Assembly: GCF_015207985.1 (NCBI RefSeq)
Contig: NZ_JADEVV010000005.1
Span: forward strand, 1 to 64,000
Direction: 5' to 3'
DNA length: 64,000 nt
Source of the DNA: Synechocystis salina LEGE 00031
GTDB lineage: Bacteria; Cyanobacteriota; Cyanobacteriia; Cyanobacteriales; Microcystaceae
Shown: piece by piece, positions 12,105 through 30,879 of the stretch
Layout of the letters: each line of letters begins with the position of its first letter
How positions within the stretch are numbered: position 1 is the first letter of the stretch
The notes under the pieces: model-generated
Told to the model about the DNA's origin: nothing
The model's database searches: none
Seen by the model: the letters and a program-made list of their open reading frames with translations, nothing else
Made by a program: the position numbers and the translations under genes

Positions 12105-12551
12105 TCAAGCAATGATTGTTTCCCCCTGCAAATAATCCCGTAGCTGTTGGTCATGGTCGTGGCTTAATGACCCCAAAGGTAAATCTTCCACAGTAAAAGC
12201 CTGTACCTGGGATACCTCCTGGCGATCGCCAACGAGCAAATTACCTGCCGCTTGAACCACCAGGGAAATGGTGACCGAGTGCATGCGGGGATCTCGGTCA
12301 GGACTGGAATAAACCCCAAGCAGGCGATCAATTTTGATTAACTGTAAACCAGTTTCTTCCCGTAACTCCCGCGCTGCCGTTATTGTCACCGTTTCTCCCC
12401 AGTCGATCAGCCCCCCCGGCAAACTCCATTGCCCCGTATCCCGCCGTTTAACTAAGACAATAGAACCACTAGGCAAAACGGGAATTAATGTCACCGCTGA
12501 CAGGGGACGACGGAGCAGTAATTTGATGAAAACCTGGGCATATCTCCACAC
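12105..12551 (-). CDS. Nudix hydrolase (MutT-like)
   Basis: A 148-residue Nudix phosphohydrolase. The Nudix box occupies residues 47-69 in the form GLIDWGETVTITAARELREE followed by TGL, with all metal-binding Glu residues present. The preceding QWSLPGG strand is typical. Substrate (dNTP, nucleotide sugar, NADH or other) is not predictable. The start is a GTG only four bases after the argH stop, so it is expected to be translated from the argH transcript; a MutT-like gene beside argH is, as I recall, also found in PCC 6803. The extreme 3' end is duplicated as a relic at 10760-10855. Confidence 0.88.
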   Translation of the reverse strand: MWRYAQVFIKLLLRRPLSAVTLIPVLPSGSIVLVKRRDTGQWSLPGGLIDWGETVTITAARELREETGLQLIKIDRLLGVYSSPDRDPRMHSVTISLVVQAAGNLLVGDRQEVSQVQAFTVEDLPLGSLSHDHDQQLRDYLQGETIIA

Positions 12552-12555
12552 CGGT

Positions 12556-13941
<1,386 letters not shown>

Positions 13942-14013
13942 TGGGATGGGGGAATTTCGTGGTGATAATTAGCAGATGGTGGCCCAGCAGTTAGTTGTAG
14001 CCGGAGAAAAATA

Positions 14014-14298
14014 TTAACCGCCAGTGAAACTCCGGAAGCCCCAACCAAGCACAAAACCAATAATCAAAGCCCAAATTTGCCCAGACTGGACAAAATTGCT
14101 CCAGGCATCCTGAAAATCCCCCAGAATGTCAACATCCCTAACATTTTGAGCAAAAAACAAACCGTGGTCCAGCCAGGAAGAGAAAACGGCGGGGGCAGTG
14201 GGGGAAAAATGCTCTATTCCTCCATGGAGAGGGAAAATATTCAAGGCTAAATCTAGGCACTGCCACATAAACGCTGACTCCCAAACAGTAAGACTCAC
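14014..14298 (-). CDS. Small hypothetical protein coupled to the PP2C phosphatase
   Basis: A 94-residue frame starting at a GTG that overlaps the stop codon of the upstream phosphatase gene (GTGA arrangement), a strong sign of translational coupling. The product has hydrophobic stretches near the N-terminus (VWESAFMWQCLDLALNIF) and at the C-terminus (IWALIIGFVLGWGFRS), ending SFTGG. I do not recognise a family. Its position suggests a membrane-associated accessory of the phosphatase, but this is inference. It could also be spurious; the coupling and the clean downstream stop favour a real gene. Confidence 0.55.
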   Translation of the reverse strand: MSLTVWESAFMWQCLDLALNIFPLHGGIEHFSPTAPAVFSSWLDHGLFFAQNVRDVDILGDFQDAWSNFVQSGQIWALIIGFVLGWGFRSFTGG

Positions 14299-15740
14299 TC
14301 CGTCGATTTTACCCGCAGAACGACCAATGTCATATCGTCCCGAGCCGGGATTTTATCGGTTTGATGACTATTGTCTGAGCCCACAAATGCTTCCACCGCA
14401 GTGAAAATTTCCGTCAAGATACCCTGGGCCGTTTGGGCGCTTTCACAGGCCCGTTGGAAAGCAATGCGGAGATTTTTGTCGTCGAACCGATCGCCTTTGG
14501 CGTTACCGGCATCGGTCAGACCATCGGTGTAGTACAGCACCACGTCCCCGGGAATGAGTTGAATTTGGGCATCCCGGTAATCGGAATCTGACTCCAAACC
14601 GATTAAAGCCCCCTCCGTATCCAGGGGAATTAAACATTGGGGAGTGTCACTGCTGGCCCGCCACAACAGGGGGGGGTTATGGGCGGCGTTGCTGTAGGAA
14701 AGCACACTCGTTTCCGGGTCGTACTCAGAATAAAACAGGGTGACAAAGCGATGGGAATTTTCCAGGTCGGCATACATGACCCGGTTGAGATGGTTGAGAA
14801 TCTGGGCCGGACTATGGCGATTTAACACTTCCGCCCGGAGCATGCCCCTGGTCATGGTCATAATTAGTCCCGCTGGCACCCCCTTACCCATGACATCGCC
14901 GATGACAATACTCCAAGGCACCCCCAAATGGCTGGTGTTGCGACATAACCAATCCCCCTGGCGCAGTTGGTCATAGTTGGCAGGAATAAAATCGTAGTAG
15001 TCTCCCCCCACCCGACTGGCGGTTTTACACTGGGCGGCAATGTCCAAACCATTAATTTGGGGGCAACAACGGGGTAACAATTGATTTTGAATTTCCGAGG
15101 CGATTTCCAATTCCCGGTCCTGACTTTCCCTGGACCTGAGTTTTTGGTTCAAGTCACTGTTGGCGATCGCCACAGCGGTTTGGTCAGAAATTAGTTGTAG
15201 TAGTTTGCGACGGGTGGGAGTCCAGCTATAGTTACGGTCCTGGCTGAAAATGTACAGACGCCCCACTTCCTCTTGGTGGCTCAAAATGGGGGTGTTATAA
15301 CAGGCGATCGCCGGTAATTCCTGGCGCAATTTACGGTCAAAATAACTCAGAATAGTGGAGGAATCCGGTGCCGGAGTAATCTGGCGAGCCTTCTGTAAAG
15401 CACCTTTAATGGTGCCCTTGAGACCATTTTTGTGGCCATGGATTTGTTCAAAAATCGATATTTCCCCCTCCCGCATCAGCACTAAAACACTGCCATCAGC
15501 ATCGGTCACCCTGGTGGCCATCAGGGGGGTCAATTCCAGAAATTGATTGAGATTATGTAAACTCCGCAGGGCATAACCCATGGCCCCCAACAAATCCTGC
15601 ACCTTGTTTTGTTCCCGGTACAACTTAGCCACCAACTCCTTGAGAATAACCACCGGAGAGGTGGGAGGTTCAACAAAGTTACCGGGGGGAATAACGGTAT
15701 CAGTGGACGGTAAGCTAGGCACGGAGGGCATGGAGGACAT
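14295..15740 (-). CDS. GAF-domain PP2C (SpoIIE/RsbU-type) serine phosphatase
   Basis: A 481-residue protein. After a Pro/Ser-rich N-terminus (about 1-30), residues about 40-205 form a GAF sensor domain (LMREGEISIFEQIHGH, YFDRKLRQELPAIACYNTPIL, LISDQTAVAIAN). A short helix (LRSRESQDRELEIASEIQNQLLP) leads to a PP2C-type SpoIIE domain (about 240-478), with metal-binding Asp in RVGGDYYDF, GDVMGKGVPAGLIM, YTDGLTDAGN and RDDMTLVVLR. Such proteins dephosphorylate anti-sigma-antagonist proteins in partner-switching pathways. No partner kinase or STAS protein gene is nearby, so the target is unknown. A second ATG three codons in is an alternative start. Confidence 0.9.
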   Translation of the reverse strand: MSSMPSVPSLPSTDTVIPPGNFVEPPTSPVVILKELVAKLYREQNKVQDLLGAMGYALRSLHNLNQFLELTPLMATRVTDADGSVLVLMREGEISIFEQIHGHKNGLKGTIKGALQKARQITPAPDSSTILSYFDRKLRQELPAIACYNTPILSHQEEVGRLYIFSQDRNYSWTPTRRKLLQLISDQTAVAIANSDLNQKLRSRESQDRELEIASEIQNQLLPRCCPQINGLDIAAQCKTASRVGGDYYDFIPANYDQLRQGDWLCRNTSHLGVPWSIVIGDVMGKGVPAGLIMTMTRGMLRAEVLNRHSPAQILNHLNRVMYADLENSHRFVTLFYSEYDPETSVLSYSNAAHNPPLLWRASSDTPQCLIPLDTEGALIGLESDSDYRDAQIQLIPGDVVLYYTDGLTDAGNAKGDRFDDKNLRIAFQRACESAQTAQGILTEIFTAVEAFVGSDNSHQTDKIPARDDMTLVVLRVKSTE

Positions 15741-16008
15741 CCCAGAAAGGTTAGTTGGAGCGATGCAGGAAAAAGTTTACAGAATCCATAGATGGACAAA
15801 CCAGTAAATCAGAGATTGGTGCAGAAAGTGCAAAGCCGGGGTCAAAATCGGCTAACTCATCAAGCAGTTTTACCAGTGGTTTGATCAAAGTTATTGTTAG
15901 CCCATTATCTAATGGAAAAACTATTGTTCTTAACGAAGGCAAACGACAACAATCTGGCCCATTGAACTGCTCAATTTTCCCCTGGGGAAGAAAAATTAGC
16001 GGGGCTTT

Positions 16009-17364
16009 TTAGCAATGGTGGGGGACAGCCATGGGCTGAACACAATGTTCCAGCAAACCAGCCACATCGGCCACAGGATAGATGGTTGTGGCCAATTTCT
16101 GGGCCACGTCGGCCACCCGGAGGTCATCCAAAAAGCAAGTATCATCGTGTTTCAACATCAGAGCAGGCAATAGGATACCATCCCCTAAATCTCTGCCTGT
16201 CAATTTAGCGATTAAATCCTGTCCCGTCAATAGTCCCGTTACCGTAATTTCCTGGCCCCAATAATCACTGTTCAAGGGGGCTAAATTAACCGTTAAACCC
16301 TCCACCTGATTTAATTGTTCCACCAGGGGCTCAAACGCCTGTTCCACAGCATTGCCCACCACCCAGGTCAACGTCTTGGCTGCGGCGATCGCCGGGGGGA
16401 GAAAGTCCTGGGCCTGTTGTTGAAATTCCCTAATAAACTGACGGATCGAACCGACCCCATTGCCAATTTGGGGATAGTCTTCGTAATGGCTTTCCGGCGG
16501 CAAAGGTTGACGGGCAATGAGAAACCACTCATCGGCCAACCAAGCAAAGTTACTACCTAGTTGTTGGGCAAATTCCTTTTGTAAAGCTTGCACCTGGGCA
16601 ATTACCTCCCTGGCTTGAGCTTGACTGACAGGGCTTAACTCATCTTCCTGGGGACGGAAACGGGTCAGGCCCACCGGCACCACGGCCACGGAAATGACCG
16701 CTGGGGTTTCCCCCTGGTGAAACTGGGCCAAATCCCTCAAAGTTCGTTCTAAATGGGCCCCATCATTAATACCGGGACACACCACCACCTGGGCGTGGAT
16801 CTGTAACCTCCTCGCCTGGAACCAAGCTAACTGGTCGAGAATTTGCCCCGCTCGCTGATTTTTTAACAATCTTTCCCGCACCGATGCTTCCGTGGCGTGG
16901 ATAGAAACGTAGAGGGGAGAAAGCCTTAACTGCTCTATGCGTTGCCATTCCTTAGCACTCAAATTGGTCAGGGTGAGATAACTGCCGTAGAGAAAACTGA
17001 GACGATAGTCGTCATCTTTGTAATACAAACTCTCCCGTTTCCCCGGCGGTTGTTGGTCAATAAAGCAAAAGGGGCAACGGTTATTGCACTGGATCAACCC
17101 GTCAAATAGGGCCGTTTCAAATCCCAGTCCTAAATCCTGATCAAATTCCTTTTCCACCGCCAGTTCGTGCAGTTCCCCTCGACGATCCAATACGTCCAAT
17201 TCCAAATAATCGTCGGCGCACAGAAATTGGTAATCAATCAAATCCCTCGGTGCCTGACCGTTAATGCGGACAATGGCATCCCCAGGCTCAAAGCCCATTT
17301 CTTCCCCCAGGGATCCCGATAACACGGTACTAATTTTGGCGGGACGTAGGGAAGCTTCACTCAT
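16009..17364 (-). CDS. PDZ/radical SAM DUF512 family protein
   Basis: A 451-residue member of a family recognised as cyanobacterial FeS oxidoreductases. Residues about 8-70 resemble a PDZ domain (LSGSLGEEMGFEPGDAIVRING). A cysteine cluster CNNRCPFC, with CX3CX2C spacing like a radical-SAM 4Fe-4S site, lies at about residues 92-99, followed by FIDQQPPGKRESLYYKDDDY. The C-terminal half is the DUF512 region. The reaction is unknown. It is conserved across cyanobacteria and is divergently placed 231 bases from the sucrose synthase gene. The ATG at 17364 is supported by the family start SEASLRPAKI. Confidence 0.88.
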   Translation of the reverse strand: MSEASLRPAKISTVLSGSLGEEMGFEPGDAIVRINGQAPRDLIDYQFLCADDYLELDVLDRRGELHELAVEKEFDQDLGLGFETALFDGLIQCNNRCPFCFIDQQPPGKRESLYYKDDDYRLSFLYGSYLTLTNLSAKEWQRIEQLRLSPLYVSIHATEASVRERLLKNQRAGQILDQLAWFQARRLQIHAQVVVCPGINDGAHLERTLRDLAQFHQGETPAVISVAVVPVGLTRFRPQEDELSPVSQAQAREVIAQVQALQKEFAQQLGSNFAWLADEWFLIARQPLPPESHYEDYPQIGNGVGSIRQFIREFQQQAQDFLPPAIAAAKTLTWVVGNAVEQAFEPLVEQLNQVEGLTVNLAPLNSDYWGQEITVTGLLTGQDLIAKLTGRDLGDGILLPALMLKHDDTCFLDDLRVADVAQKLATTIYPVADVAGLLEHCVQPMAVPHHC

Positions 17365-17549
17365 GGCTTGGGGGACAAAGCAGTGGTTTGACTGACAGAA
17401 TAGTTATTGAAAATTAGCGAAGACCGCATTAATTCAGTGGATGATTTATCCTGACCCATTCTACCTTGGCCCATGGAGCCCATGGTTTTAGCCCCTGTCC
17501 GGTTGGGGAAAAGGCGATCGCCAAAGGAGAGCAAATCGGGGGAAGATTG

Positions 17550-17567
17550 TTGATAGTGTATTATCAA
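17550..17567. promoter_or_regulatory. Inverted repeat upstream of sucrose synthase gene
   Basis: TTGATA (17550-17555) and TATCAA (17562-17567) form an inverted repeat with a six-base spacer, 28 bases before the sucrose synthase ATG. Its position suits an operator overlapping the promoter or leader. The regulator is unknown. Confidence 0.35.
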
Positions 17568-17595
17568 TAATGAATACTTCTCACATTAATATTTT

Positions 17596-20025
17596 ATGCA
17601 CAATCTGATTAAAGCAGTGGTGAATAGCAACGAAAATACCCTGCTGAGGGAATTTCTCCACCAACTGCGGCAACAGAAGCGTACCTATTGGTTAAGAAAC
17701 GACATCATCGTCTTTTTTGAACAATTTTGTCAGGAACAAAAGCAAGAAGGAAAATTATCCCCGACGGGTCAAAGCACCGTCCAGATTGAAAAAATTCTGC
17801 AAGTTATCCAAGAAATTATCCTCGAATCCGAAAGTTATTGCATTGTTATTCGCCCCAAAATTGCCCAGGAAGAATTCTATCGTCTCACTAATGCCCTGGA
17901 AGTAGAAGCTATTTCTGTCCAAGAAATTCTCGCTATCCGTGACCGCTATGTCAACCGTCATCATCCAGCGGATGGAAAAATTTTTGAAATTGATTTTCGT
18001 CCTTTTTATGACTATTCTCCTCTGATTAGAGACAGTAAAAATATTGGCAACGGAGTACAATATTTAAACCGCTTTTTATCCAGTAAATTATTCCAAGATC
18101 CCCAGCAGTGGTTATCGGAGTTGTACAAATTCCTGAGCCTGCATAACTACAATGGCACCCAGTTGCTAATTAATGAAAGAATCCAAAACCAGGCCCAATT
18201 ATCGAATCAAATTAAAGAGGCGATCGCCTTTGTGGAAAGTAGGCCCGGAACGGAACCCTATCCTGAATTTCGCTTTCCCCTCCAATCCCTTGGTTTTGAG
18301 CCTGGTTGGGGCAACACCGCCGCTAGGGTCCAGGAAAGCCTAGAGTTGCTCGATGCCCTGCTGGATTCACCGGATCACCAAATCCTAGAAGCCCTACTGT
18401 CCCGCATTCCGATGATTTTTCGTCTAGTGCTGGTGTCCTGCCATGGTTGGTTTGGCCAGGAAGGAGTGTTGGGGCGGCCAGATACCGGCGGCCAAGTGGT
18501 TTATGTGCTGGACCAAGCTAAAAGCTTAGAGCAACAATTGCTGGAAGATATCACCTTAGCGGGGCTCGATGTGCTAAAAATTGCCCCCCAAGTAATTATC
18601 CTCAGCCGCTTAATTCCCCAGAGTGACGGTACCCGCTGTGACGAACGTTTAGAAAAAGTTTATGGCACAGAAAATGTCTTTATTCTCCGGGTTCCCTTCC
18701 GTAGTAATGGCCATTCCACTGATTACTGGATTTCCCGCTTTGAAATTTGGCCCTACCTGGAAACCTTTGCCATTGATGCAGAAAAAGAATTGTGGTCGGT
18801 TTTAAACGGTCGTCCTGATTTAATTGTTGGTAATTATACCGACGGTAATTTAATTGCTTTTCTCCTGGCCCGTAAACTGAAGGTAACCCAATGTAATGTG
18901 GCCCACGCCCTGGAAAAGTCGAAATATTTATTTAGTAATCTCTATTGGCAAGATTTGGAGAGTCAATATCATTTTTCTCTGCAATTTACTGCCGATTTAA
19001 TTGCCATGAATGCGGCTAATTTCATTGTCAGTAGCACTTACCAAGAAATCACCGGCATGCCCGATAGTGTGGGGCAGTATGAGTCCTATAAGCATTTTAC
19101 CATGCCAGATTTGTACCATGTGGTGGATGGCATTGAGCTATTTAGCCCCAAATTTAATGTGGTCCCCCCTGGCGTAAATGAGTCCTATTTTTTCCCCTAC
19201 AGTAATTACCAAGACCGCACCATGGGCGATCGCCAACGGTTGGAGGAATTGTTGTTTACCCTTGATGATCCGAGTCAGGTCTATGGCAGGTTAGACAATC
19301 CAGAAAAACGCCCCCTCTTTTCCATGGCTCGGTTAGACCGAATTAAAAACCTGACCGGATTGGTGGAAATTTTTGCCCAGAGCGATTCATTACAAGCACA
19401 ATGCAACCTAATTTTAGTGGCGGGGAAATTACGCCTGGAGGAATCGGAAGACCCCGAGGAACGCAGTGAAATTGAAAAAATGTATGCACTAATTGACCAG
19501 TATCAACTCCAGGGCAAAATTCGTTGGTTGGGGGTGCGGCTCTCCAAAGGGGATACGGGGGAAGTGTATCGGGTCATTGGCGATCGCCGGGGCATTTTTG
19601 TCCAGCCAGCTTTATTTGAAGCCTTTGGTTTGACCATCCTGGAAGCGATGATTTCTGGCCTGCCCACCTTTGCCACCCGCTTTGGCGGCCCCCTGGAAAT
19701 TATCCAAGACGGAGAAAATGGTTTTCTGATTAACCCCACCCAAACTAAGGAAACGGGCGATCGCCTGGCAAAATTTGTCCAGCAATGTGACCAAGACCCC
19801 GATCTTTGGTCGAAGCTTTCCCAGGCGGCCATGGCCAGGGTTTACAGTACCTACACCTGGAAAATTCACACCACTAAACTCCTTTCCCTTTCCCGGATTT
19901 ATGGCTTTTGGAATTTTGTCTCCCAGGAAGAGCGGGAAGATATGCTCCGTTACATTGAGGCCTTGTTCTATTTGCTCTACAAACCCAGGGCTAATCAACT
20001 TCTAGCGGCCCAGCACAGCCTTTAA
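17596..20025 (+). CDS. susA: Sucrose synthase
   Basis: An 809-residue GT4-type GT-B glycosyltransferase that reversibly makes sucrose from NDP-glucose and fructose, usually running towards sucrose cleavage. The N-terminal sucrose synthase domain (about residues 1-270) is full length. The catalytic part begins at SCHGWFGQEGVLGRPDTGGQ and ends with the EX7E motif EAFGLTILEAMISG and RFGGPLEIIQDGENGFLINP. Length fits the family (about 806). There are no sucrose-phosphate synthase, phosphatase or invertase genes beside it. I do not recall a sucrose synthase in PCC 6803, so this may be strain-specific. HIP1 sites inside it show that it is not a very recent foreign arrival. Confidence 0.93.
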   Translation: MHNLIKAVVNSNENTLLREFLHQLRQQKRTYWLRNDIIVFFEQFCQEQKQEGKLSPTGQSTVQIEKILQVIQEIILESESYCIVIRPKIAQEEFYRLTNALEVEAISVQEILAIRDRYVNRHHPADGKIFEIDFRPFYDYSPLIRDSKNIGNGVQYLNRFLSSKLFQDPQQWLSELYKFLSLHNYNGTQLLINERIQNQAQLSNQIKEAIAFVESRPGTEPYPEFRFPLQSLGFEPGWGNTAARVQESLELLDALLDSPDHQILEALLSRIPMIFRLVLVSCHGWFGQEGVLGRPDTGGQVVYVLDQAKSLEQQLLEDITLAGLDVLKIAPQVIILSRLIPQSDGTRCDERLEKVYGTENVFILRVPFRSNGHSTDYWISRFEIWPYLETFAIDAEKELWSVLNGRPDLIVGNYTDGNLIAFLLARKLKVTQCNVAHALEKSKYLFSNLYWQDLESQYHFSLQFTADLIAMNAANFIVSSTYQEITGMPDSVGQYESYKHFTMPDLYHVVDGIELFSPKFNVVPPGVNESYFFPYSNYQDRTMGDRQRLEELLFTLDDPSQVYGRLDNPEKRPLFSMARLDRIKNLTGLVEIFAQSDSLQAQCNLILVAGKLRLEESEDPEERSEIEKMYALIDQYQLQGKIRWLGVRLSKGDTGEVYRVIGDRRGIFVQPALFEAFGLTILEAMISGLPTFATRFGGPLEIIQDGENGFLINPTQTKETGDRLAKFVQQCDQDPDLWSKLSQAAMARVYSTYTWKIHTTKLLSLSRIYGFWNFVSQEEREDMLRYIEALFYLLYKPRANQLLAAQHSL

Positions 20026-20441
20026 CCATCCCGTACTAAGAGGAGATTTTAAACTTTTCCCTGCCCTCTTCAACCTCAGAGGGAAAGGGGATCAAAACCC
20101 CCATTTAGGGCGTCAACCTAAACTTTACCAACAGGCCCCATCCACAAAGTTGACGTCCTCTTTGATACAATTGAGGGTTGTTATGGATTGTCATCGTCGG
20201 ATTTGCTTCCATCGGTGCATTGCCCTTAATACTGGTTTACTTGCCCTCCGCCATGGCTCACCCACCTTCCAGGGATTGGGGGAGGGGGAAACACCGTTCC
20301 AAACATCTGTACATCTGCAGTTGACATAGTTCAGTAATTTACTGAGGACGGCTTTCCAATACAAACTTTATGGGCAATGGCAAACCGCGGCAATCCTAAC
20401 GCTTCCCTTCACCCCGTAAGCCCACCTCAGGATTCAGTTTC
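20026..20441. other. Intergenic region between sucrose synthase and zam
   Basis: Contains a possible terminator for sucrose synthase (CCCTCT at 20064-20069, AGAGGG at 20078-20083, eight-base loop, no T-run) and then the zam leader. A 48-codon frame at 20178-20324, with a TTG start, would encode a hydrophobic N-terminus (WIVIVGFASIGALPLILVY) like a signal or membrane anchor, but there is no well-spaced ribosome site. No other feature was recognised. Confidence 0.4.
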
Positions 20442-22787
20442 ATGGATTATTCGATCGCCACACTTTTGTCCTATTTTGTTGATGACAAATTAGTAGCGGG
20501 TAAATTTCTCGAAAAAAAATTAGGTTGTGAAAGTCCTGAGGCCATAGAAGCCCTGCAGATTGTCCTCGATGCCCTGGAAAAAATGGGCGTACTAGTGAAG
20601 GAACGGGGCAAATACAAACGGGTATCCCGGGAAGATGTGGTGGAGGCACGGCTACGTTGCTCCAGTAAGGGTTTTTGTTTTGCCATCCAGGACGATGAAG
20701 ATGCCACCGATATTTACGTCCGGGAAGGCAATCTCAGCAATGCTTGGAACGGCGATCGGGTTTTGGTCAAAGTGATTAAAGACGGTACCCGCCGCAAATC
20801 CCCCGAAGGGGCCGTCCATCTCATTCTTGATCGGGCCAATCCCTCTCTGTTAGCCCAGGTGAAAAAAAGCGAAGATAATTACCGCGCAGTGCCCCTGGAT
20901 GACCGCTTGCTATTTGAGCTAGAACTCAAAGACGAAGAGCAAAACCTCGCAGAGGCAGTGGACCACCTCGTCCATGTTTCCGTTCTCCGTTATCCCATTG
21001 CCCAGCACCCGCCCCTAGGGGAAGTTACCAAAGTGTTGGGTAGTGACGCTGAGGCCGCCGCCGATACCGATATCGTCTCCTGTAAGCATGATTTGCCCCT
21101 AGGCTGGACTCCCGAAGCCATCGAAGCTCTGCAAAATTTGCCCAAGGTAATTGAACCCGGAGAACTGAAGAAAAGACAGGATTACCGCAAACTCCAGTTA
21201 GTTACCTTTGGCGCTCGCCTCCGGGGAGAAACCTTACCCTGGCAAGAAGTGGCCCTGAGTCTAGAAAGCCAGCCAAACCAATGGCAAGTGGGCATTCACA
21301 TCACCGACATTGCCCACTACATCGCCGAAGATAGTCTGTTGGACCAGTTAGCTCGTAAACGGGGCACCACCGTATACCTAGAAGAACAGGTTTGCCCCCT
21401 TTTCCCCGAAGGGTTGACCGGACGCTGTTCCCTCATCCCTGATGAAGATCGTTTGGCCCTATCCTTCTTTCTCACCGTGGATGACCGGGGGGAAGTAACA
21501 GGTTTTGAATACCACAGCAGTGTGGTCAAAATTGATCGCCAACTGGACTTCAGCGAAGTGCAGACGGCCCTGGCGGATATTGAATCCGTTAATGACGATT
21601 TGAAACCCTACAGCGGTCTGCTCCAGGAACTATTCTTCCAAATTTGCCCCCTGATTAAATCCCAACGCCTGCAACGGGGCAGTTTCAACCTCCAAACAGA
21701 AACGGCTTCCCCCCGCCTGGATGAGGGCCGTTTAGGGGTGATCATGACCCAAGAAACCCTGCCCATCCGTAGCTTGTTAGCAGAACTGATGGTAGTGTTG
21801 CAACGGGAAGTGGCTCTCCAACTCCAAGCCCTGGGGATACCGGGTCTCTACTGTGGGCAAGTAGCGCCGGAGGCAGAAGATCTGACGGACATTGTTAAAT
21901 TAGCGGAAAACCTTGATTTAGGCGTAAAAATCGACCTAGAAGGGGACATTATTCCCCAGCATTACCACCACCTCAGCCAAGCATTTGAATCCCTGCCAGC
22001 TAAAGCGGTGTTGAACCATTTGCTGGCCAATACCCTCAAACTCGAAAAGTACTTTAGCCACCCCGCTCCCCACTTTGCCCTCGCCTACGACTCCGGTTAT
22101 ACCCACTGTGTTTCTCCGGCCCAACGGTATGGGGACTTGGTGGTGCAACGGTTGCTGAAACTCGTATTGGCGGAGGGGCGCGATCGCCGCACCAAACAAA
22201 TGAAAACCGGAGTAGATCTCAATGCCCACACCTGCCGCAACCAAATTAGCTGGAATGTGTTGCCGCCCAACCTCCAAGAAACCATTGAAGGGGATTTGCA
22301 CCAGTTGGTCTTGGGACTCAACGACCGGGAGCAAACCGCCGAAGATGCGGAAAAAGATCTGTTGGGGCTGAAAAAAGCCGAAAAAATGAAAGCTCGCACC
22401 GGGGAAATTTTCCGGGGGTTAATCACTGGCGTCCAATCCTACGGCTTCTTTGTGCAAATTTTCGATCTACTAGCTGAAGGCCTCGTCCATGTTAGTTCCC
22501 TCAAAGATGATTGGTATGAGTTCCGCAGTCGTCAATGTGCCCTAGTGGGACGCAAAAGTCGTACTTCCTACCGCTTAGGCAACGAGGTGGACGTGCAGGT
22601 GCGCAGTGTGGACTATTACCGTCAACAAATTGACCTCGGAGCAGTTAACAATGCCCCCAAAGGTTCTGCCAACATTGATTTGGATGATGATGACGAAGAG
22701 GGAGATGACCAAGACCAGGATGAGACCATGGATTGGGATGCCATGGACGATGGCGATGATGACGAAGGGGGGGCGGTAATTTTCTAG
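20442..22787 (+). CDS. zam: RNase II/R-like protein Zam (probably catalytically altered)
   Basis: A 781-residue RNB-family protein matching in length the Synechocystis Zam protein, known for acetazolamide resistance. The N-terminus has cold-shock-like OB folds (GFCFAIQDDEDATDIYV), the RNB core spans about residues 245-590 (HITDIAHYIAEDSLLDQLA, RKRGTTVYLEEQV), and an S1 domain follows (about 655-725). The tail is very acidic. In active RNase II the segment after QDYRKL carries four catalytic Asp; here it reads LVTFGARLRGETLPWQEVAL (residues 253-272) with none of them, and the catalytic Arg of SPIRKYGD is Gln (SPAQRYGD, 558-565). It may therefore bind RNA without degrading it. Shorter RNase II proteins exist separately in Synechocystis. 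Confidence 0.85.
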   Translation: MDYSIATLLSYFVDDKLVAGKFLEKKLGCESPEAIEALQIVLDALEKMGVLVKERGKYKRVSREDVVEARLRCSSKGFCFAIQDDEDATDIYVREGNLSNAWNGDRVLVKVIKDGTRRKSPEGAVHLILDRANPSLLAQVKKSEDNYRAVPLDDRLLFELELKDEEQNLAEAVDHLVHVSVLRYPIAQHPPLGEVTKVLGSDAEAAADTDIVSCKHDLPLGWTPEAIEALQNLPKVIEPGELKKRQDYRKLQLVTFGARLRGETLPWQEVALSLESQPNQWQVGIHITDIAHYIAEDSLLDQLARKRGTTVYLEEQVCPLFPEGLTGRCSLIPDEDRLALSFFLTVDDRGEVTGFEYHSSVVKIDRQLDFSEVQTALADIESVNDDLKPYSGLLQELFFQICPLIKSQRLQRGSFNLQTETASPRLDEGRLGVIMTQETLPIRSLLAELMVVLQREVALQLQALGIPGLYCGQVAPEAEDLTDIVKLAENLDLGVKIDLEGDIIPQHYHHLSQAFESLPAKAVLNHLLANTLKLEKYFSHPAPHFALAYDSGYTHCVSPAQRYGDLVVQRLLKLVLAEGRDRRTKQMKTGVDLNAHTCRNQISWNVLPPNLQETIEGDLHQLVLGLNDREQTAEDAEKDLLGLKKAEKMKARTGEIFRGLITGVQSYGFFVQIFDLLAEGLVHVSSLKDDWYEFRSRQCALVGRKSRTSYRLGNEVDVQVRSVDYYRQQIDLGAVNNAPKGSANIDLDDDDEEGDDQDQDETMDWDAMDDGDDDEGGAVIF

Positions 22788-22915
22788 CTGTTGTCCAGGG
22801 ACAAATCCTGCAAACCAAAGCAGACTAGGGCAAAGGCCATTGTCGCCTGGGCAAAAGTTGCTAAAATTTAACAATTCGCAATAAATTTTAACAATTATCC
22901 CAGGAGCAACGATCA

Positions 22916-23302
22916 ATGGCCGGATTATTTGGCTTATTTGGTAAAAAAGCACGGTACGTCGAAGATATTGAAGCCAACCCCGGCGCTCAACCAGAAAAAA
23001 AAGAGGCATTTTTCCTCGAAACCGACGATGCCAAGAGCTTAGGCAATGCTGAATATATGCGGACTCCAATCAAAATTAAACGGAGTTTTCCTAAAACCCT
23101 TAATTCCCAAGGGGGGGAAGTGGTGAAGGAAGTTTCTGCCATGGAAGTGAAAAAAATCCAGGCCAATGGCCAGCCGGCCCCCAGTGCCCAAACAGACTCC
23201 GCCCCATCTCCGGCCAACACCACTCCCGCAAACGACGATCGCCGTTCCAGCGACAACAGTTTGGATATGTTCCGCCAGATGGCTAAGGATTTGAAAAAAT
23301 AA
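22916..23302 (+). CDS. Conserved small basic/acidic protein
   Basis: A 128-residue protein with a good ribosome site (AGGAG ten bases before the ATG). It starts MAGLFGLFGKKARYVEDIE and has a central TPIKIKRSFPKT stretch. A low-complexity Ala/Pro/Ser/Asn linker (about residues 85-112) leads to a short helix DMFRQMAKDLKK at the end. No signal peptide or membrane segment is present. I recognise only a cyanobacterial hypothetical; the short N-terminal and C-terminal helices joined by a linker suggest an adaptor. It follows zam by 128 bases in the same direction. Confidence 0.75.
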   Translation: MAGLFGLFGKKARYVEDIEANPGAQPEKKEAFFLETDDAKSLGNAEYMRTPIKIKRSFPKTLNSQGGEVVKEVSAMEVKKIQANGQPAPSAQTDSAPSPANTTPANDDRRSSDNSLDMFRQMAKDLKK

Positions 23303-23506
23303 AATGGCAAGGGGCAGCGAAAATTTCTGAGCTTGCACACAGACGATGGTGAGGTGTCTTGACCATTCTCTGATGGCAGAGGAGTTAGGGCACTCGGCCA
23401 ACACTAATTAAAGAGCACTGTAGTTCCGGCAGGGCAAGCATTAAATTCTTGCCTGGGCTGGGTAACCTATGATGGTAGTGGTAATCTTTGCTTTTCTTTC
23501 CAGACC

Positions 23507-23791
23507 ATGAGCATCATCGAGCAAGTTCTCACCGCCACCGTCACAGTAGAACAAACTTTAGAGCTTCCCCCGGAAATTAGATCCAAACTTGTTCCCGGTG
23601 AAACCTATAGAATTACGGTTCAAGAAGATACCATCGAACTAACAAAAATCCCTAAATTTGATTGGGAACAGTGGCGACAAAATTTAAGTAGGGATGGTGA
23701 GGAACTTACCGATGAAATTATGGAAGAAATTTGCGAACTTGTCCGAGAAGTACGTCATGAAAATCGTCTTGAGAGAGAATCGGCATCATGA
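23507..23791 (+). CDS. Antitoxin-like protein of a PIN toxin pair
   Basis: A 94-residue acidic protein whose stop overlaps the start of the PIN-domain gene by four bases (ATGA), the usual toxin-antitoxin arrangement with the antitoxin first. The N-terminal part (about 1-50: TVEQTLELPPEIRSKLVPGE, YRITVQEDTIELTKI) looks like a small AbrB/SpoVT-type beta domain. The C-terminal part (about 55-94) is a Glu-rich helix (EIMEEICELVREVRHE) of the type that wraps a PIN toxin. Autoregulation of the pair would be expected from the family but no operator was identified. Confidence 0.75.
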   Translation: MSIIEQVLTATVTVEQTLELPPEIRSKLVPGETYRITVQEDTIELTKIPKFDWEQWRQNLSRDGEELTDEIMEEICELVREVRHENRLERESAS

Positions 23792-24198
23792 AGGTTGTCT
23801 TGGACACAAACCTTTGGCTATCGGCGTGGTTATGGCAAGGTTTACCCAAAGAGTTAATAGAGTTGGCTAAGAAAGGAGAAGTCTGCAGTTGTACGTCCTT
23901 AGAAATTTTGCAGGAGTTAAAAAAAGTTTTAAGTTATCGTAAACTGCAAAAGAGGCTCGCAATACTTTCTTTAACATCGGAAGATATTCTGATCGGAATG
24001 CAGGAAATTTTCGTTATTTTCCCTATCCAGCCCCTGGAAGTTCCCGAACTGCGGGATCCTAAAGATGCCATGGTTTTGGCAACGGCGATCGCCTCCCAGG
24101 CCGATGCCATTATCAGTGGCGACAGCGATTTGTTCATTCTCGAAACGTATCAAAATATTCCCATTTTGACCGCAAAACAATTTTTAGATAGTTTGTGA
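23788..24198 (+). CDS. PIN-domain ribonuclease toxin (COG1569 type)
   Basis: A 136-residue PIN protein. The acidic catalytic set is present: Asp6 in VVLDTNLWLSA, Glu39 or Glu43 in SLEILQEL, Asp93 in DPKDAMVL and Asp112/Asp114 in ISGDSDLF. Proteins of this group are Mg-dependent endoribonucleases held inactive by the partner antitoxin. It is translationally coupled to the upstream antitoxin gene and ends 15 bases before the FAD oxidoreductase gene. The pair looks intact. The RNA target is unknown. Confidence 0.82.
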   Translation: MKVVLDTNLWLSAWLWQGLPKELIELAKKGEVCSCTSLEILQELKKVLSYRKLQKRLAILSLTSEDILIGMQEIFVIFPIQPLEVPELRDPKDAMVLATAIASQADAIISGDSDLFILETYQNIPILTAKQFLDSL

Positions 24199-24213
24199 TT
24201 CTCCAGAAAAATT

Positions 24214-26013
24214 ATGGCCATGGCAACAAAATCCATTCCCCAATTGACCACAGATATTTTGGTAGTGGGGGGGGGCACTGGGGGCACAGCCGCGGCGATC
24301 CAGGCGGCCCGGCGGGGAGTCAAAACTATCCTGGTAAGTGAGGGGCCCTGGTTGGGGGGCATGTTAACTTCCGCTGGGGTAGCGGCCCCCGATGGTAATG
24401 AATTGGCTGCTTGGCAAACAGGTTTATGGGGACAATTCTTACGGACTTTGCAAACCCAACAACCTGGGGGTTTAGATCATGGCTGGGTTAGCTTATTTAC
24501 CTTTGATCCTCGCTTAGGGGCCAAGGTACTGGCTGACTGGGTGGCTGATTTACCTACCTTGACTTGGATTAATCATCAGTTTCCGGTAGAGGTCTTAAAA
24601 AATGGCGATCGCCTGGTGGGGGTGAGATTTCCAGACTATGAAATCCGGACCAAGGTAATTCTCGATGGCACAGAGTTGGGGGATTTACTGGCTCTGGGAG
24701 ACATTGACCACCGCTGGGGTTGGGATTGGCAGGATAAATTTGATGAACCTAGTTGTCCCGTTGCGCCTAATGGCATGACAAAAGAGTATCCAATACAGTC
24801 TCCCACTTGGGTATTTTTGCTACGAAAAACAACAAATAGTCAGACAAATATCATTGCTGAACCTACCATTGATGTGGCTCAAGATTTCAGCAATACTTGG
24901 CAGAACCACGGGGAAAAAGATTTCTTAACCTATGGTCAATTGCCTGGTGAGCATTACATGATTAATTGGCCGATCGCCGGCAATGATTATGGCCGGGATT
25001 TAGACCGTTTACTGGGTAGTGAAAAGGAAAGGCAAGCCTATTTACGGGAAGCTTACCAATATAGCTATGCCTACGCCCATTATTTACAGCAACATCATTC
25101 CGAAAAATTGGAATTAGCCACAGGAATTTTTCCACAGGTGGGAGATCTTTCCACTGCCTTTGCCCTCCATCCCTACTACCGAGAAAGTAGGCGTTTGAAA
25201 GGTCAACAAGTGATTACGGAAAGGGATATTTTACCCCAGGGCGAGGTGGCTTCCCTGCCAATTCATAATCAAAAAGTTACTAGCATTGCGGTGGGAAACT
25301 ATGCCAACGATCACCACTATCCTGGTTACGAGTTTCCCCTCGCTCCTAAATCCTTAATTTGGGGCGGACGGTGGACAGGAACTCCCTTTACCATTCCCTT
25401 TGAAGCCCTTTTATCCCCAACAGTGCGGGGCTATTTACCCTGTGAAAAGAACATTTCCGTTAGTCACATGGCCAATGGCAGTACCCGTTTGCAACCCCTC
25501 GTGATGAATACAGGGCAGGCGGTGGGTATGATAGCGGCCTTAAGTATTGAAAAAAATTGCGACCCCCAGGATTTGGACGTGCGGGATGTGCAGGAAGCTC
25601 TCATTGGCGATCGCCAAGCTCCAGCGGCGGTAATTCCCCTCTTTAATTTGGCCCCCGACCATCCTGAATGGCGGCAATGGCAACGATATTATCTAGACAA
25701 TCCTGAGCAATATCCCCCATCAGGTCATTGTCCAGTAGATGTTAATTTGGCTCGATTACCATTTTCTAAAAGTCAATACGTTTACAGTGGTGAATTGCAA
25801 AAAAGCGAAAACCAAACCTATCAGTTAACCTGTCAACAATCAGGTAAAGTTCTCAAAGTAATTACGGAACGACCGGAAGTGGCAGAGCAATTAATTGACT
25901 GTGCCCATGGACAAAAAATTACCCTGGGGGGTCGCTACAATCCGGCCGGTAATTGGTTAGTGGTGGAAACAGTGGAAACTATCACATCAGGTAAGGACCT
26001 TGGGGGCAGATAG
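24214..26013 (+). CDS. FAD-dependent oxidoreductase (FAD_oxidored family)
   Basis: A 599-residue flavoprotein. The N-terminal dinucleotide-binding motif is VVGGGTGGTAAAIQAARRG (about residues 17-35), followed by the family motif LVSEGPWLGGMLTSAGVAAP. The C-terminal RVSHMANGSTRLQP-like stretch (SVSHMANGSTRLQPLVMNTG, then QAVG) matches the end of this FAD fold. The substrate is unknown; relatives are often called xanthan lyase-like or hypothetical. No signal peptide is visible. A second ATG two codons in is an alternative start. Its 3' end overlaps the convergent membrane glycosyltransferase gene by 79 bases. Confidence 0.82.
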   Translation: MAMATKSIPQLTTDILVVGGGTGGTAAAIQAARRGVKTILVSEGPWLGGMLTSAGVAAPDGNELAAWQTGLWGQFLRTLQTQQPGGLDHGWVSLFTFDPRLGAKVLADWVADLPTLTWINHQFPVEVLKNGDRLVGVRFPDYEIRTKVILDGTELGDLLALGDIDHRWGWDWQDKFDEPSCPVAPNGMTKEYPIQSPTWVFLLRKTTNSQTNIIAEPTIDVAQDFSNTWQNHGEKDFLTYGQLPGEHYMINWPIAGNDYGRDLDRLLGSEKERQAYLREAYQYSYAYAHYLQQHHSEKLELATGIFPQVGDLSTAFALHPYYRESRRLKGQQVITERDILPQGEVASLPIHNQKVTSIAVGNYANDHHYPGYEFPLAPKSLIWGGRWTGTPFTIPFEALLSPTVRGYLPCEKNISVSHMANGSTRLQPLVMNTGQAVGMIAALSIEKNCDPQDLDVRDVQEALIGDRQAPAAVIPLFNLAPDHPEWRQWQRYYLDNPEQYPPSGHCPVDVNLARLPFSKSQYVYSGELQKSENQTYQLTCQQSGKVLKVITERPEVAEQLIDCAHGQKITLGGRYNPAGNWLVVETVETITSGKDLGGR

Positions 26014-27332
26014 CTCAGGGGCGTATAAATAATCAAAAATAGGCAGACGAATAATCCCCAAAAAAGCACATTGATAAACTCCGGGCGCTGACGGTCTAGC
26101 AATAGGGAAGTCATCGCCAAAGTTAAAGCCAACAAAACTAGCACTAATATGGTGAGCACTCCGTCCTGGGCAGTCCAAGTGGTTAAATTGCCTCGGCCAT
26201 AGGCGTTATAAACTGCCATGGCCCCTAGGCCCGCACAACCCCCCAGAATTAAGAAAAATCTCCGCCACCAGGGAGGATAAACCAAGGTAATACTTTCCTG
26301 CCTCACTTCCGCTAAAGTTAACCCTGCCGCCACTGCCAGAACTACCAACAGGGGCATCACCAAGGATGGGCTAGACCAAGGGGAAATAATCACTAACATG
26401 CTGTACGCTCCTGCTTGGCAAACAAGAAAACGGGCCCAACTCCAATGCAAAGCCTGTTGAGCTTGGGGAAAGGCATGCAGAGCGAAGATTAAACCAGGGG
26501 CACTGGCCAATAACCAAAACCAACCCCGCAGTTTAGTTGGCCAGGGGGAACCACTAATGAAGTCAAGACTGGTCAACAGGTCGGCACTGGAGGGTAATGA
26601 GCTATGACCTAGCCACCAGGCGATCGCCGGCATCAAACCTAAAATGAAACCGGTCCAAAAGAGGACTGAGGATTTTAAACGGGGTGTATCCCAATAAAGA
26701 AAAAGTAGGCTAGTAGCCAATAGAACAATGGCTGTGGGCAAATTCGTTAAGGCCAGGGCACTAAGGATTAGACCCAAAGGTAGGGCTCCCCGCAAATCCC
26801 GACGGCAAAACAAGGCGCTAGCTAGGCAGGCAATGGTTAAGGGCAAAATAAAACTGTTAATGCTGGCTACCCTGGCCCAATAAACCACTGTGGGGGCCGT
26901 GCCATAGACCACCACCGTTAGCAAAGCTGGCCAACGGCGGCCGTACAGTTCCTTCCCCAGCCAATATAACAACGGCAAACTTGCCCCATTGAGCAAGGCT
27001 CCCAGTAAACGATCGCCCCATAATCCCTGGCCAAAGATTATTTGACTAAGACTAATCAACCAAATGGGCAATGGCGATCGCCCTAGGTTATCGAACAAGC
27101 TAGTGGGGGTGAATCCATAATTTTGTAGTGTCGTCCACCAATAGTGGGCTGATTCCACTAAATTTGTTTCTTCTCCCCGCCGTAGGCTATGGAAATCCAA
27201 CCCCCAACTGAACAACAAAGCTATGGGGATCATCACCAGCACTACACTGGACCATGCCTCCAGGGGCCAACGCTGGAGTTTTTGCCCCAGATTTGCCATT
27301 AATTTCCTTAAGTTGGGCCTACTCATCGCCAC
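25935..27332 (-). CDS. GT39-like membrane glycosyltransferase (PMT_2/ArnT type)
   Basis: A 465-residue polytopic protein with about ten hydrophobic segments. After the first helix comes a loop with RRGEETNLVESAHYWW, which resembles the acidic catalytic loop of the dolichyl-phosphate-mannose/ArnT glycosyltransferases. The stretch GRSPLPIWLISLSQIIFGQG fits the next conserved element. It probably transfers a sugar from a polyprenyl phosphate to an envelope acceptor; donor and acceptor are unknown. The first ATG lies inside the end of folP (10-base overlap), but MANLGQ, twelve codons in, is an equally good start just outside it. Its 3' end overlaps the FAD oxidoreductase gene tail to tail. Confidence 0.75.
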   Translation of the reverse strand: MAMSRPNLRKLMANLGQKLQRWPLEAWSSVVLVMIPIALLFSWGLDFHSLRRGEETNLVESAHYWWTTLQNYGFTPTSLFDNLGRSPLPIWLISLSQIIFGQGLWGDRLLGALLNGASLPLLYWLGKELYGRRWPALLTVVVYGTAPTVVYWARVASINSFILPLTIACLASALFCRRDLRGALPLGLILSALALTNLPTAIVLLATSLLFLYWDTPRLKSSVLFWTGFILGLMPAIAWWLGHSSLPSSADLLTSLDFISGSPWPTKLRGWFWLLASAPGLIFALHAFPQAQQALHWSWARFLVCQAGAYSMLVIISPWSSPSLVMPLLVVLAVAAGLTLAEVRQESITLVYPPWWRRFFLILGGCAGLGAMAVYNAYGRGNLTTWTAQDGVLTILVLVLLALTLAMTSLLLDRQRPEFINVLFWGLFVCLFLIIYTPLSYLPPRSLPDVIVSTVSTTNQLPAGL

Positions 27333-28192
27333 AGGGCATCCGCCACCCGACAGACCTGGGCCATGGCTTCTACGTCATGCACTCTGATGATATCTGCTCC
27401 CCCGGCGATCGCCCGACAGCAGGCCGCCCCGGTACCCCAAACCCGTTGCTTGGGATCCGGCTGGTCTAAAATTTTGCCAATGAAGCTTTTGCGGGACGGC
27501 CCCACCAACAGGGGAAAACCAAGCTTTTTTAGCTCCGGCAACTGACGCAGCAGGGTGATATTTTGCTCAGCGGTTTTAGCAAAGCCAATGCCAGGATCGA
27601 GGATGATTTGTTGGGGTAATACGCCGTAATGGCGGGCTAGGTCAATTTGTGTGGCGAAAAACTGCTTCATTTCCCCGATTAAATCCCCATAATCCGTCAA
27701 ATTCTGCATGGTTTGGGGAGTACCCCGTATATGCATCAGAATAATCGGGGCCCTGTGCTGGGCGGCGATCGCCAAAATTTCTGGTTCAAAGGTAGCCCCG
27801 GAAATATCGTTGATCAGATCTGCTCCAGCCTGGAGGGCTTGCCGTGCCACCTCTACCCTGGTGGTATCGATGGAAATGGGGATGTCCAATTCCTGTCGGA
27901 GAGTCTGGATAACGGGAATGGTGCGTTCCAATTCTTCCGTGAGGCTAACGGTTTCTGCTCCCGGTCGGGTGGACTGGCCGCCAATGTCGATGATATCGGC
28001 CCCCGCTTCTACCATGGCCTTGGCCCGGTGGATGGCCGTTGGCAGGGCATTAAACTCGCCTCCATCGCTAAAACTGTCTGGGGTGGTGTTCAAAATCCCC
28101 ATCACATAGGTGCGTTTACCCCAATCGAAGCGGCTCTGCCCCACCTGGAGGGGAGGGGGAAAATAATCACTCAATTGATCCAACTGATCCAT
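27323..28192 (-). CDS. folP: Dihydropteroate synthase
   Basis: A 289-residue TIM-barrel enzyme joining 6-hydroxymethyl-7,8-dihydropterin diphosphate to p-aminobenzoate in folate synthesis. Signatures are VMGILNTTPDSFSDGG (loop 1), ADIIDIGGQSTRPGA (loop 2), INDISGA, LMHIRGTPQTMQ, LDPGIGFAKT, GPSRKSF and IRVHDV. All substrate-binding residues seem present, including the Ser/Arg pair of the pABA site. Length is typical. It is probably co-transcribed with the downstream membrane glycosyltransferase gene, which overlaps it by 10 bases. Confidence 0.95.
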   Translation of the reverse strand: MDQLDQLSDYFPPPLQVGQSRFDWGKRTYVMGILNTTPDSFSDGGEFNALPTAIHRAKAMVEAGADIIDIGGQSTRPGAETVSLTEELERTIPVIQTLRQELDIPISIDTTRVEVARQALQAGADLINDISGATFEPEILAIAAQHRAPIILMHIRGTPQTMQNLTDYGDLIGEMKQFFATQIDLARHYGVLPQQIILDPGIGFAKTAEQNITLLRQLPELKKLGFPLLVGPSRKSFIGKILDQPDPKQRVWGTGAACCRAIAGGADIIRVHDVEAMAQVCRVADALWR

Positions 28193-28362
28193 GGGCTATT
28201 GGGACGTAAGGTTGGAGCACCGGGAGCGCTCTTGGTAGAATGTACCCCAAGGGCAATGCTAGTTGGCCAGTGTTTGCTGGCTCCGGTCATAGCAAAGCTC
28301 CATGATCCTAACCATACAATTTTCGCTGATTTTTCGGGTTTTATTCCCCCAGTTGCCTAACC

Positions 28363-28914
28363 ATGCCCCTGCATTTCGCCTCTTTGATTCCCATTGACAG
28401 CTTGTTTTCCACCCAAGGCATTATGGTGATGCTGTTGGGAGCCTATGCTTTGGCCATGTGGTTATTTCTCACCAGTGCCCCCAAGGTTTACACCGTGATG
28501 GTGTCTGACCTGGCGATCGCCAAAGCTTTTTATGAAGGGATGCTGGACTTAAATGGGGCTGACGTGCCTCTGCATTACTACTACAACTATGAACAAACCC
28601 TAGGCACCGCTGGTTGGGATTCCTTTGCCATGGCCGCTAACCCCCAAATCCCCCCCGAAAATCGCTACAGTGCCCAGGACGGCCTGTGGTATCAGTTGAA
28701 AAAGAATACCCAACTGCACATCATTGGCGGAGCTAGCTTTGGCAGTAAAAATCGCCAACGCCACGTTTGCTTTGACCACGATTGCCTAGAGCAAATTTTT
28801 CTGCGGGTGCAGTCCCGTCGTCTCCGCTATAAGTTACGCAGTCGTAAACCGTTAAATTTTTTGGTCAAGGATTACGATGAACGGGTGATTGAACTAACGG
28901 AAGCCCAGAATTAG
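28363..28914 (+). CDS. Glyoxalase-like cyanobacterial protein
   Basis: A 183-residue protein. A hydrophobic N-terminal stretch (GIMVMLLGAYALAMWLFLTS) is followed by a glyoxalase/VOC-like core: VYTVMVSDLAIAKAFYEGML, NRQRHVCFDHDCLEQIFLRV and the end NFLVKDYDERVIELTE. VOC metal enzymes use His and Glu pairs; here His (RHVCF) and Glu (VIELTE) are in the right places, so metal binding is possible. The reaction is unknown. It stands just upstream of nadD (11 bases), so the two probably form an operon. Confidence 0.72.
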   Translation: MPLHFASLIPIDSLFSTQGIMVMLLGAYALAMWLFLTSAPKVYTVMVSDLAIAKAFYEGMLDLNGADVPLHYYYNYEQTLGTAGWDSFAMAANPQIPPENRYSAQDGLWYQLKKNTQLHIIGGASFGSKNRQRHVCFDHDCLEQIFLRVQSRRLRYKLRSRKPLNFLVKDYDERVIELTEAQN

Positions 28915-28925
28915 AAAGCTCCACC

Positions 28926-29528
28926 GTGAAAATAGCCCTTTTTGGCACCAGCGCCGATCCTCCGACCCTAGCCCACCAAGCCATTCTCATTTGGTTAGCT
29001 CAACATTTTGACCGAGTAGCAGTGTGGGCCGCCGATAACCCTTTTAAACAAGGCCCCAATCCCAACACAGGCCATTGGGCCAGCCTCGGCGATCGCCAAA
29101 CAATGTTGAAATTGCTAGTGGAAGACGTACAGAGTCATTACGGCACGGTACAAATTTGGGAAGATTTGAGCGATCGCCGTAGTTTAATTAGCCTGCAACG
29201 GGCCCGACAACGGTGGGGTCTGGAACCTAATTATGCTCTGGTGGTGGGGGCTGATTTGATTACCCAAATTCCCCAATGGTACGCAGTGGAAAAATTGTTG
29301 CCCGCTGTCCAATTGCTGATTTTTCCCCGACCAGGTTACAGCATTGATCAAGCTGATTTGGCTAGGTTGGAGCAGTTGGGAGGGCAATATCAAATAGTCG
29401 ATCAGGTTGGCGATCGAGACATTACTCCGGCCATTTCCTCCAGCATTTATCGCCAAACGAAGGAGGAGGAGCTAATTCCCCCTGCAGTGCAAAGTTACAT
29501 TGAACAAAAACAACTGTATGAACCCTAA
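28926..29528 (+). CDS. nadD: Nicotinate-nucleotide adenylyltransferase
   Basis: A 200-residue nucleotidyltransferase that makes nicotinic acid adenine dinucleotide. The N-terminal nucleotide-binding motif is IALFGTSADPPTLAHQAI, a diverged form of the usual GGTFDPxHxGH, with His16 retained. The C-terminal phosphate-binding motif is SSSIYRQ (usual ISSTxIR), and WAADNPFKQGPN gives the substrate loop. Length is normal. The start is a GTG with an upstream AGAAAGCTCCACC leader. It is 11 bases downstream of the glyoxalase-like gene and 47 bases upstream of hemW. Confidence 0.88.
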   Translation: MKIALFGTSADPPTLAHQAILIWLAQHFDRVAVWAADNPFKQGPNPNTGHWASLGDRQTMLKLLVEDVQSHYGTVQIWEDLSDRRSLISLQRARQRWGLEPNYALVVGADLITQIPQWYAVEKLLPAVQLLIFPRPGYSIDQADLARLEQLGGQYQIVDQVGDRDITPAISSSIYRQTKEEELIPPAVQSYIEQKQLYEP

Positions 29529-29575
29529 CCATGGTCAGCTAGGGTCAGTACCATCGAGCATTCCCCATTAATTCC

Positions 29576-30835: not shown

Positions 30836-30879
30836 TGGACTCACTGGAAGGTTACCTTTGGTGATCAACAAAATTTTGA

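Follow-up and report, generated by a model that had tools for sequence, protein, structure and literature searches.

What does a protein do once it has lost the active site of ribonuclease R (RNase R) and kept the fold? The question is raised by zam, a gene in the 64,000-nucleotide stretch of Synechocystis salina LEGE 00031 analyzed here (contig NZ_JADEVV010000005.1, positions 1 to 64,000; hereafter the window). The gene lies at 20442..22787 on the forward strand, as do all its features given below, and encodes from an ATG start a protein of 781 amino acid residues. Zam is still annotated as ribonuclease R in many genomes (PMC9145284). Thomas et al. (2022) described it as a clade of the RNB family with a degenerate site, so that the degenerate site and the pseudo-exonuclease reading are already published (PMC9145284).

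Our answer is that the window Zam is most likely a working pseudo-exonuclease, since it retains an intact fold and purifying selection acts on the gene. As to what it does, we think it rather probable that Zam is an RNase R derivative without RNase R catalysis, a redox-responsive RNA-binding or degradosome-partner protein that would adjust RNase E-dependent RNA turnover. What is added here to the published account is modest. It consists mainly of families that keep three of the four active-site Asp residues, an acidic C-terminal tail, and a conflict over the Anabaena protein Alr1240; that the site has been lost unevenly, beyond the published loss, is likewise a modest addition.

Active site, fold and selection in the window Zam

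The protein contains a first cold-shock domain (CSD1, OB_RNB; residues 70–127, 20649..20822; PF08206, 67.9 bits), a second one (CSD2; residues 151–222, 20892..21107; PF17876, 52.4 bits), the RNB domain (residues 245–577, 21174..22172; PF00773, 257.8 bits), and an S1 domain (residues 651–732, 22392..22637; PF00575, 45.5 bits), all over their Pfam cut-offs. This CSD1-CSD2-RNB-S1 architecture and the RNB fold place it in the RNase II/R (RNB) superfamily. With the RNase_R equivalog model TIGR02063 it scores 413.5 bits, under the cut-off of 597.85 and thus below the score of an active RNase R.

The active site was read from a MAFFT alignment that set 102 Zam proteins beside 38 RNase II-type sequences and the E. 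coli enzymes RNase R and RNase II. In the former active-site loop (residues 253–272, 21198..21257), which reads LVTFGARLRGETLPWQEVAL, the columns of D272, D278, D280, and D281 of E. coli RNase R are occupied by G257, W267, E269, and V270. In the SPAQRYGD motif (residues 558–565, 22113..22136), Gln561 stands in the column of Arg571, and Tyr563 and Asp565 are retained. A phmmer alignment to the RNase R structure 8cdu places E269 under D281, not D280. In either case, with residues assigned by sequence alignment, one of the four positions is acidic, and it is a Glu. An active RNase R has four acidic residues and the Arg of SPxRRYxD; the window Zam has one of the four and a Gln. The 38 RNase II-type control rows, which include the only other RNB gene of the window genome (L001), all have Asp272, Asp280, and Asp or Glu at 278; Asp281 is present in 37, and so is Arg571, the remaining row having a gap. 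A preliminary description of the stretch, made from its letters, had claimed this loss of the four catalytic Asp residues and the replacement of Arg by Gln, and had described the fold and the S1 domain as seemingly intact; the alignment, the four Pfam domains, and the structural model bear it out.

For the model, AlphaFold2 was given 60 named relatives together with the window protein; the result has a mean predicted local distance difference test score (pLDDT) of 85.9 and a predicted template modelling score of 0.81. The pLDDT falls below 50 over at least three residues only at 260–263, in the former active-site loop, and at 742–781, in the tail. Searches with Foldseek and VIA-align ranked RNase R first (8cdu, expectation value (E) 4.7e-54), and VIA-align superimposed the RNB part on 8cdv with a Z score of 42.4, at 2.2 Å over 373 residues. 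The yeast pseudonuclease Ssd1 (7am1) is also among the structural matches (E 1.4e-34 with Foldseek, Z 34.3 with VIA-align). The sequence comparisons agree. Against the window Zam, E. coli RNase R scores 231.6 bits in phmmer and every one of the 38 RNase II-type rows fewer than 94, a separation that extends to Zam as a whole (at least 229 bits, against fewer than 94 for the RNase II type). As Thomas et al. had found, Zam clades with RNase R and apart from cyanobacterial RNase II, by phmmer and in the tree described below. By sequence and structure, RNase R is the nearest relative of Zam. One genome (G434) carries an RNB gene in addition to the Zam and RNase II types, an open frame of 635 amino acids scoring 174.7 bits (L083).

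Selection was estimated as the ratio of nonsynonymous to synonymous substitution rates (dN/dS) between the window zam and those of two congeners, 97% and 93% identical; two further congeners, 59% and 63% identical (the latter G014), are too distant for synonymous rates in most domains. Over residues 1–741 the ratio is 0.033 and 0.037, which indicates a working gene. It is 0.058 and 0.041 in RNB, 0 and 0.040 in CSD1, and 0 and 0.006 in S1; compared with G076, CSD1 and S1 have no amino acid change at all. Within RNB, the active-site loop (residues 249–275; 0.315 and 0.144) is the least constrained part. That this loop evolves fastest, and that one genome (G239, family f23) has a zam split over two frames with a stop, is what might be said for the degenerate site being drift in a decaying gene. 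Such drift is already disfavored and hardly credible, given a dN/dS of about 0.035 outside the tail, the unchanged CSD1 and S1, and the Zam-level match in 189 of 194 genomes of the class.

Uneven loss of the site among cyanobacterial Zam proteins

To the 102 Zam sequences, drawn from across the class, a further 148 were added that are enriched for the clade keeping Asp residues, for a total of 250; family codes such as f5 and f18 are those assigned by the tool. Before enrichment, the number of acidic residues at the four positions is zero in 27 sequences, one in 27, two in 39, three in 9, and four in none. The pseudo-exonuclease reading, also put forward in the preliminary description, draws support from the window site itself, from this survey across cyanobacterial Zam, where none of the 250 has four acidic residues at the metal site, and from PMC9145284.

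The loss has gone to different depths. D272, D280, and D281 are retained together in 54 of the 250, all of which have Arg571; at D278, the one position lost, they have Ala (31), Val (21), Ser, or Thr. These three-Asp proteins make up the whole of f18 (29/29), most of f26 (22/29), and the single f19 sequence, with one from a Leptolyngbya (L259) and one from a filamentous strain (L241). The D280–D281 pair without the full set occurs in a further 47, of which 45 have Arg571; L062, one of the 47, has Asp at D278 and has lost D272. Glu280 is found in 105, among them the window protein and those of Nostocaceae and Chroococcales-type genomes, Asp280 alone in nine, and neither Asp nor Glu at this position in 35, including all of f25 (16/16) and f50 (5/5). 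In the Nostocaceae family f5, every one of the 17 rows has E280 and N281 and has lost both D272 and D278. Overall, Arg571 is present in 146 of the 250 and Asp at D278 in two.

The first, third, and fourth Asp coordinate the metal and have served as the signature of an active site in fungi; mutation of these residues abolished activity in several subfamilies (PMC8097288). By that yardstick, the 54 three-Asp proteins possibly count as active. A literature search for a substitution of only the second Asp (RNase II D207N) found no paper. The 54 are one of two reasons to consider that Zam, at least in some lineages, might still act as an exonuclease through a metal site that is non-standard or incomplete, the other being the report that Alr1240 degrades single-stranded RNA (PMC10989914), to which we return. 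We regard residual catalysis as improbable. The window Zam has a single acidic ligand position and no catalytic Arg, and its counterparts in f5, the group of Anabaena, have lost D272 and D278 throughout, so that contamination by a host RNase must be excluded for Alr1240. The mutational results in several subfamilies also argue against it, as does the failure of Zam to substitute for Rnb, the RNase II that is essential in Synechococcus PCC 7002 (PMC9145284). An ordered active-site loop was considered as a mark of the three-Asp type and dropped: the model of one such protein, that of Oculatella (L235), likewise has a pLDDT below 50 at 260–263, and the models do not discriminate.

In a tree of the 102 Zam sequences that was rooted on E. 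coli RNase R, the sole outgroup, and built with the trait columns removed, the D280–D281 pair occurs only in a single clade, where 30 of the 34 rows have it. The pair changes seven times if only losses are allowed and three times under unrestricted parsimony, counts made uncertain by a very long outgroup branch and by 31 open inner branches out of 100. Because so few of the 250 have Asp at D278, the data are equally compatible with repeated loss and with one early loss of D278 and subsequent drift. Arg571 accompanies the pair in 99 of 101 sequences and is found in 47 of the 149 without it. A link between Asp and Arg retention beyond common descent was nevertheless rejected, since the tree offers only two independent pairs, inseparable from ancestry. 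In f18, f26, and f22, D280–D281 is strict (86/86), which suggests constraint. We do not take this strictness as a sign of metal binding: f5 is equally strict for Glu280–Asn281, and conservation there need not mean that a metal is bound.

Cold-shock domains, cysteines, tail and the Alr1240 conflict

If not catalysis, what has been conserved? Mean column conservation over the 102 Zam is highest in CSD1 (0.827) and S1 (0.811), followed by CSD2 (0.648) and RNB (0.525). We count this concentration in CSD1 and S1, and not in RNB, in favor of the role proposed above, and RNA binding by the window Zam is plausible because these two are by far the most conserved parts. We propose that the RNB barrel would have been retained as a scaffold, with the metal site and catalytic Arg gone, and that the conserved cold-shock and S1 domains would perform the function, adjusting RNase E-dependent RNA turnover through a redox-responsive RNA-binding or degradosome-partner role. 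The switch may be the pair Cys73 (20658..20660) and Cys79 (20676..20678) in the RNA-contacting loop of CSD1. In Synechococcus PCC 7002, function requires these redox-active cysteines, and mutating either one gives a phenotype like that of the deletion; phycocyanin and photosystem phenotypes were described, and redox-dependent binding of RNase E was proposed (Thomas et al. 2022; PMC9145284). In addition, repression of zam hurts growth in lactate in a CRISPRi screen (PMC7125299).

Both cysteines are present in 246 of the 250 Zam, including the window protein, as Thomas et al. describe for Zam. They are both lost, with aromatic residues in the loop, in all eight f23 genomes examined (G085, G239, G410, G419, G427, G436, G444, and G452), and Cys79 is lost in one further Zam (L164, G284). 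The split zam of G239 (L359 and L362) is in a single-contig genome, and decay and sequencing error are not distinguished there. No Zam is present in the f57 genome or in either genome of f58, one of which is a single contig with 99% completeness; only the RNase II-type gene was seen in G432 (79% complete) and G387. In viral contigs, scanned with the window Zam, a pattern match was obtained for 13 stretches, none of which encodes a relative.

The second conserved trait is the tail. The disordered C-terminus of the window Zam (residues 742–781, 22665..22784) is acidic in composition, with 19 Asp or Glu and no Lys or Arg in the last 34 residues. Across the 250 Zam, the net charge of the last 30 residues has a median of −10 and is below zero in 246; the 37 RNase II-type proteins have a median of −1, with 20 below zero. 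A charge of −8 or lower is reached by 159 of 250 tails against one of 250 random internal stretches. Counted from the end of S1, 245 of 248 tails are negative and one is positive. The part of the E. coli RNase R tail within the locus analyzed has 21 Lys or Arg and 6 Asp or Glu. We found no mention of the acidic tail in the parts of PMC9145284 available to us, and made no wider literature search on this point. Standing in place of the basic tail of RNase R, it may fold back on the RNA-binding face of the protein or hold a basic partner. The reported absence of RNA binding would be consistent with a tail that acted as an RNA mimic at the cold-shock/S1 face.

That report concerns purified Zam of PCC 7002, an aggregation-prone protein, which showed neither nuclease activity nor RNA binding (data not shown; PMC9145284). 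It would suit a protein-only partner, whose OB-folds bind RNase E or another protein and alter its activity without binding RNA, and a basic protein partner would suit the conserved acidic tail. We think this unlikely, if worth serious weight: the Lys/Arg and Phe residues with which RNase II contacts RNA are retained in CSD1 (PMC9145284), and the binding test was done on aggregating protein. Several observations do weigh against a redox-responsive protein that has kept RNB as a mere scaffold. Apart from the lack of RNA binding in vitro, the loss of both cysteines in f23 means that the redox switch is not required in every lineage. The RNB domain of the window Zam keeps 22 of 34 signature positions of the RNase II family, including the equivalents of Tyr573 and Asp575, which might be more than a pure scaffold needs. 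Finally, Alr1240 of Anabaena is reported to degrade unstructured RNA like RNase II (PMC10989914).

Alr1240 deserves a closer look. It binds RNase E and enhances its cleavage, according to the review PMC10989914, and a later paper still names it an exoribonuclease (PMC10783494), yet Thomas et al. identified it as Zam (PMC9145284). Its gene is the first of one transcription unit, alr1240-alr1241-alr1242 (PMC10287535). In the Nostocaceae genome G042 (L165, 4967–8757), zam is followed immediately on the same strand by two genes, the first of them for a ubiX-like flavoprotein (PF02441), an order that matches alr1240-alr1241-alr1242; the RNase II gene of G042 is on the opposite strand, and no gene in its orientation adjoins its end. 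Upstream of zam in G042 is clpP, which would match alr1238, presumably also a clpP gene. The gene order indicates that Alr1240 belongs to the Zam proteins and has a degenerate site, which puts the published activity data in conflict. As E280 and N281 stand in all f5 rows, activity of Alr1240 would be surprising. If Alr1240 is indeed Zam, the RNA decay would come from a contaminant or from a non-standard site. The literature on the cyanobacterial degradosome counts Alr1240 among the active RNase II enzymes; were it Zam, it would represent either activity from outside or a nuclease without the usual site, and either matters. A transcript antisense to alr1240-alr1241-alr1242 increases in Nostoc PCC 7120 under nitrogen starvation (log2 3.56 and 2.96; PMC10287535), the condition in which zam mutants resynthesize phycocyanin slowly.

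The preliminary description had further suggested that loss of catalysis could explain acetazolamide resistance. This part does not hold. Resistance arises from deletion or interruption of zam (PMC9145284), whereas the natural, intact protein with its degenerate site is the sensitive wild type. Because resistance follows from losing zam, the degenerate site leaves the acetazolamide link unexplained. Nothing beyond the name of the gene speaks for such an explanation, which we consider most improbable.

The natural variants found here, with three Asp, two Asp, Glu-Asn, or none, with or without the Cys pair, and the genomes without Zam, are natural material for finding the functional part of the protein and the need for the switch.

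Genomic neighborhood and comparison with known systems

The surroundings of zam were compared in 134 wide loci, which are not independent of one another. Downstream lie a ubiX-like gene in 62 of them, at a median gap of 20 bp, or a DUF3153 gene in 32; upstream are clpP in 36 and an unannotated divergent open reading frame (ORF) in 65. None of these neighbors is kept in the window, where zam is preceded by a sucrose synthase gene (17596–20025, forward strand; TIGR02470, 1204.5 bits) and, before it, a gene for a radical SAM protein of unknown role (16009–17364, reverse strand; TIGR03279, 803.6 bits). About 130 bp past zam is an unannotated ORF of 128 amino acids (22916–23302, forward strand) that matches nothing in Pfam or NCBIfam at E 0.01 and did not recur beside zam in as many as three other loci. 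Among window ORFs of at least 70 amino acids in 12001–31000, only zam and two ORFs overlapping it recur in at least three other loci. At 23507–24198 on the forward strand, an ORF of 94 amino acids, the stop of which overlaps the start of a PIN-domain gene (TIGR00305, PF13470), forms with it what looks like a toxin-antitoxin pair.

The closest known system is Zam itself. The proteins of Synechocystis PCC 6803 (sll1910) and Synechococcus PCC 7002 (A1543) are the same gene, with the RNase R-like domain order, the degenerate RNB site, and Cys73/Cys79 (PMC9145284), and nothing essential differs from the window Zam. The published account has the cysteines invariant and Zam in every cyanobacterial genome searched (PMC9145284), whereas here one family is without the cysteines and another without Zam.

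Bacterial RNase R (E. coli 5xgu, B. subtilis 8cdu) is the nearest family and has the whole fold in common with Zam, which has lost the four-Asp site and Arg571, falls below the TIGR02063 cut-off, and has an acidic C-terminal tail where that of E. coli RNase R is basic. Cyanobacterial RNase II (Rnb, sll1290 type) belongs to the same superfamily and supplies the second RNB gene of the window genome, L001; Sll1290 is an active RNase II (PMC10989914). Unlike Zam, the Rnb proteins retain the full site, with Asp272 and Asp280 in all 38.

The pseudonucleases of fungi offer a comparison of working only. Yeast Ssd1, a non-enzymatic relative of RNase II, binds RNA through its cold-shock domains (PMC8934651), and in the fungal Dis3L2/Ssd1 family, activity was lost at least four times with the cold-shock domains still conserved (PMC8097288). 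An inactive RNB barrel with conserved cold-shock domains is thus found in Ssd1 and other Dis3L2-derived pseudonucleases as in Zam. The descent is different: Ssd1 comes from Dis3L2, and Zam, by sequence and fold, independently from RNase R. An RNA site has been mapped on the cold-shock domains of Ssd1, and none in Zam in the literature available to us. It is tempting, as a tentative and on present evidence doubtful proposal, to see in Zam the bacterial counterpart of Ssd1. A non-catalytic function, redox-gated and tail-controlled, would have come first, and the nuclease site would then have decayed repeatedly to different depths; two families might keep the three-Asp site and the Arg as a 3′-end clamp or a slow nuclease, where others erased it. 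The acidic tail would cover the RNA-binding face until it was displaced, and the negative RNA-binding result in vitro would then be explained as well.
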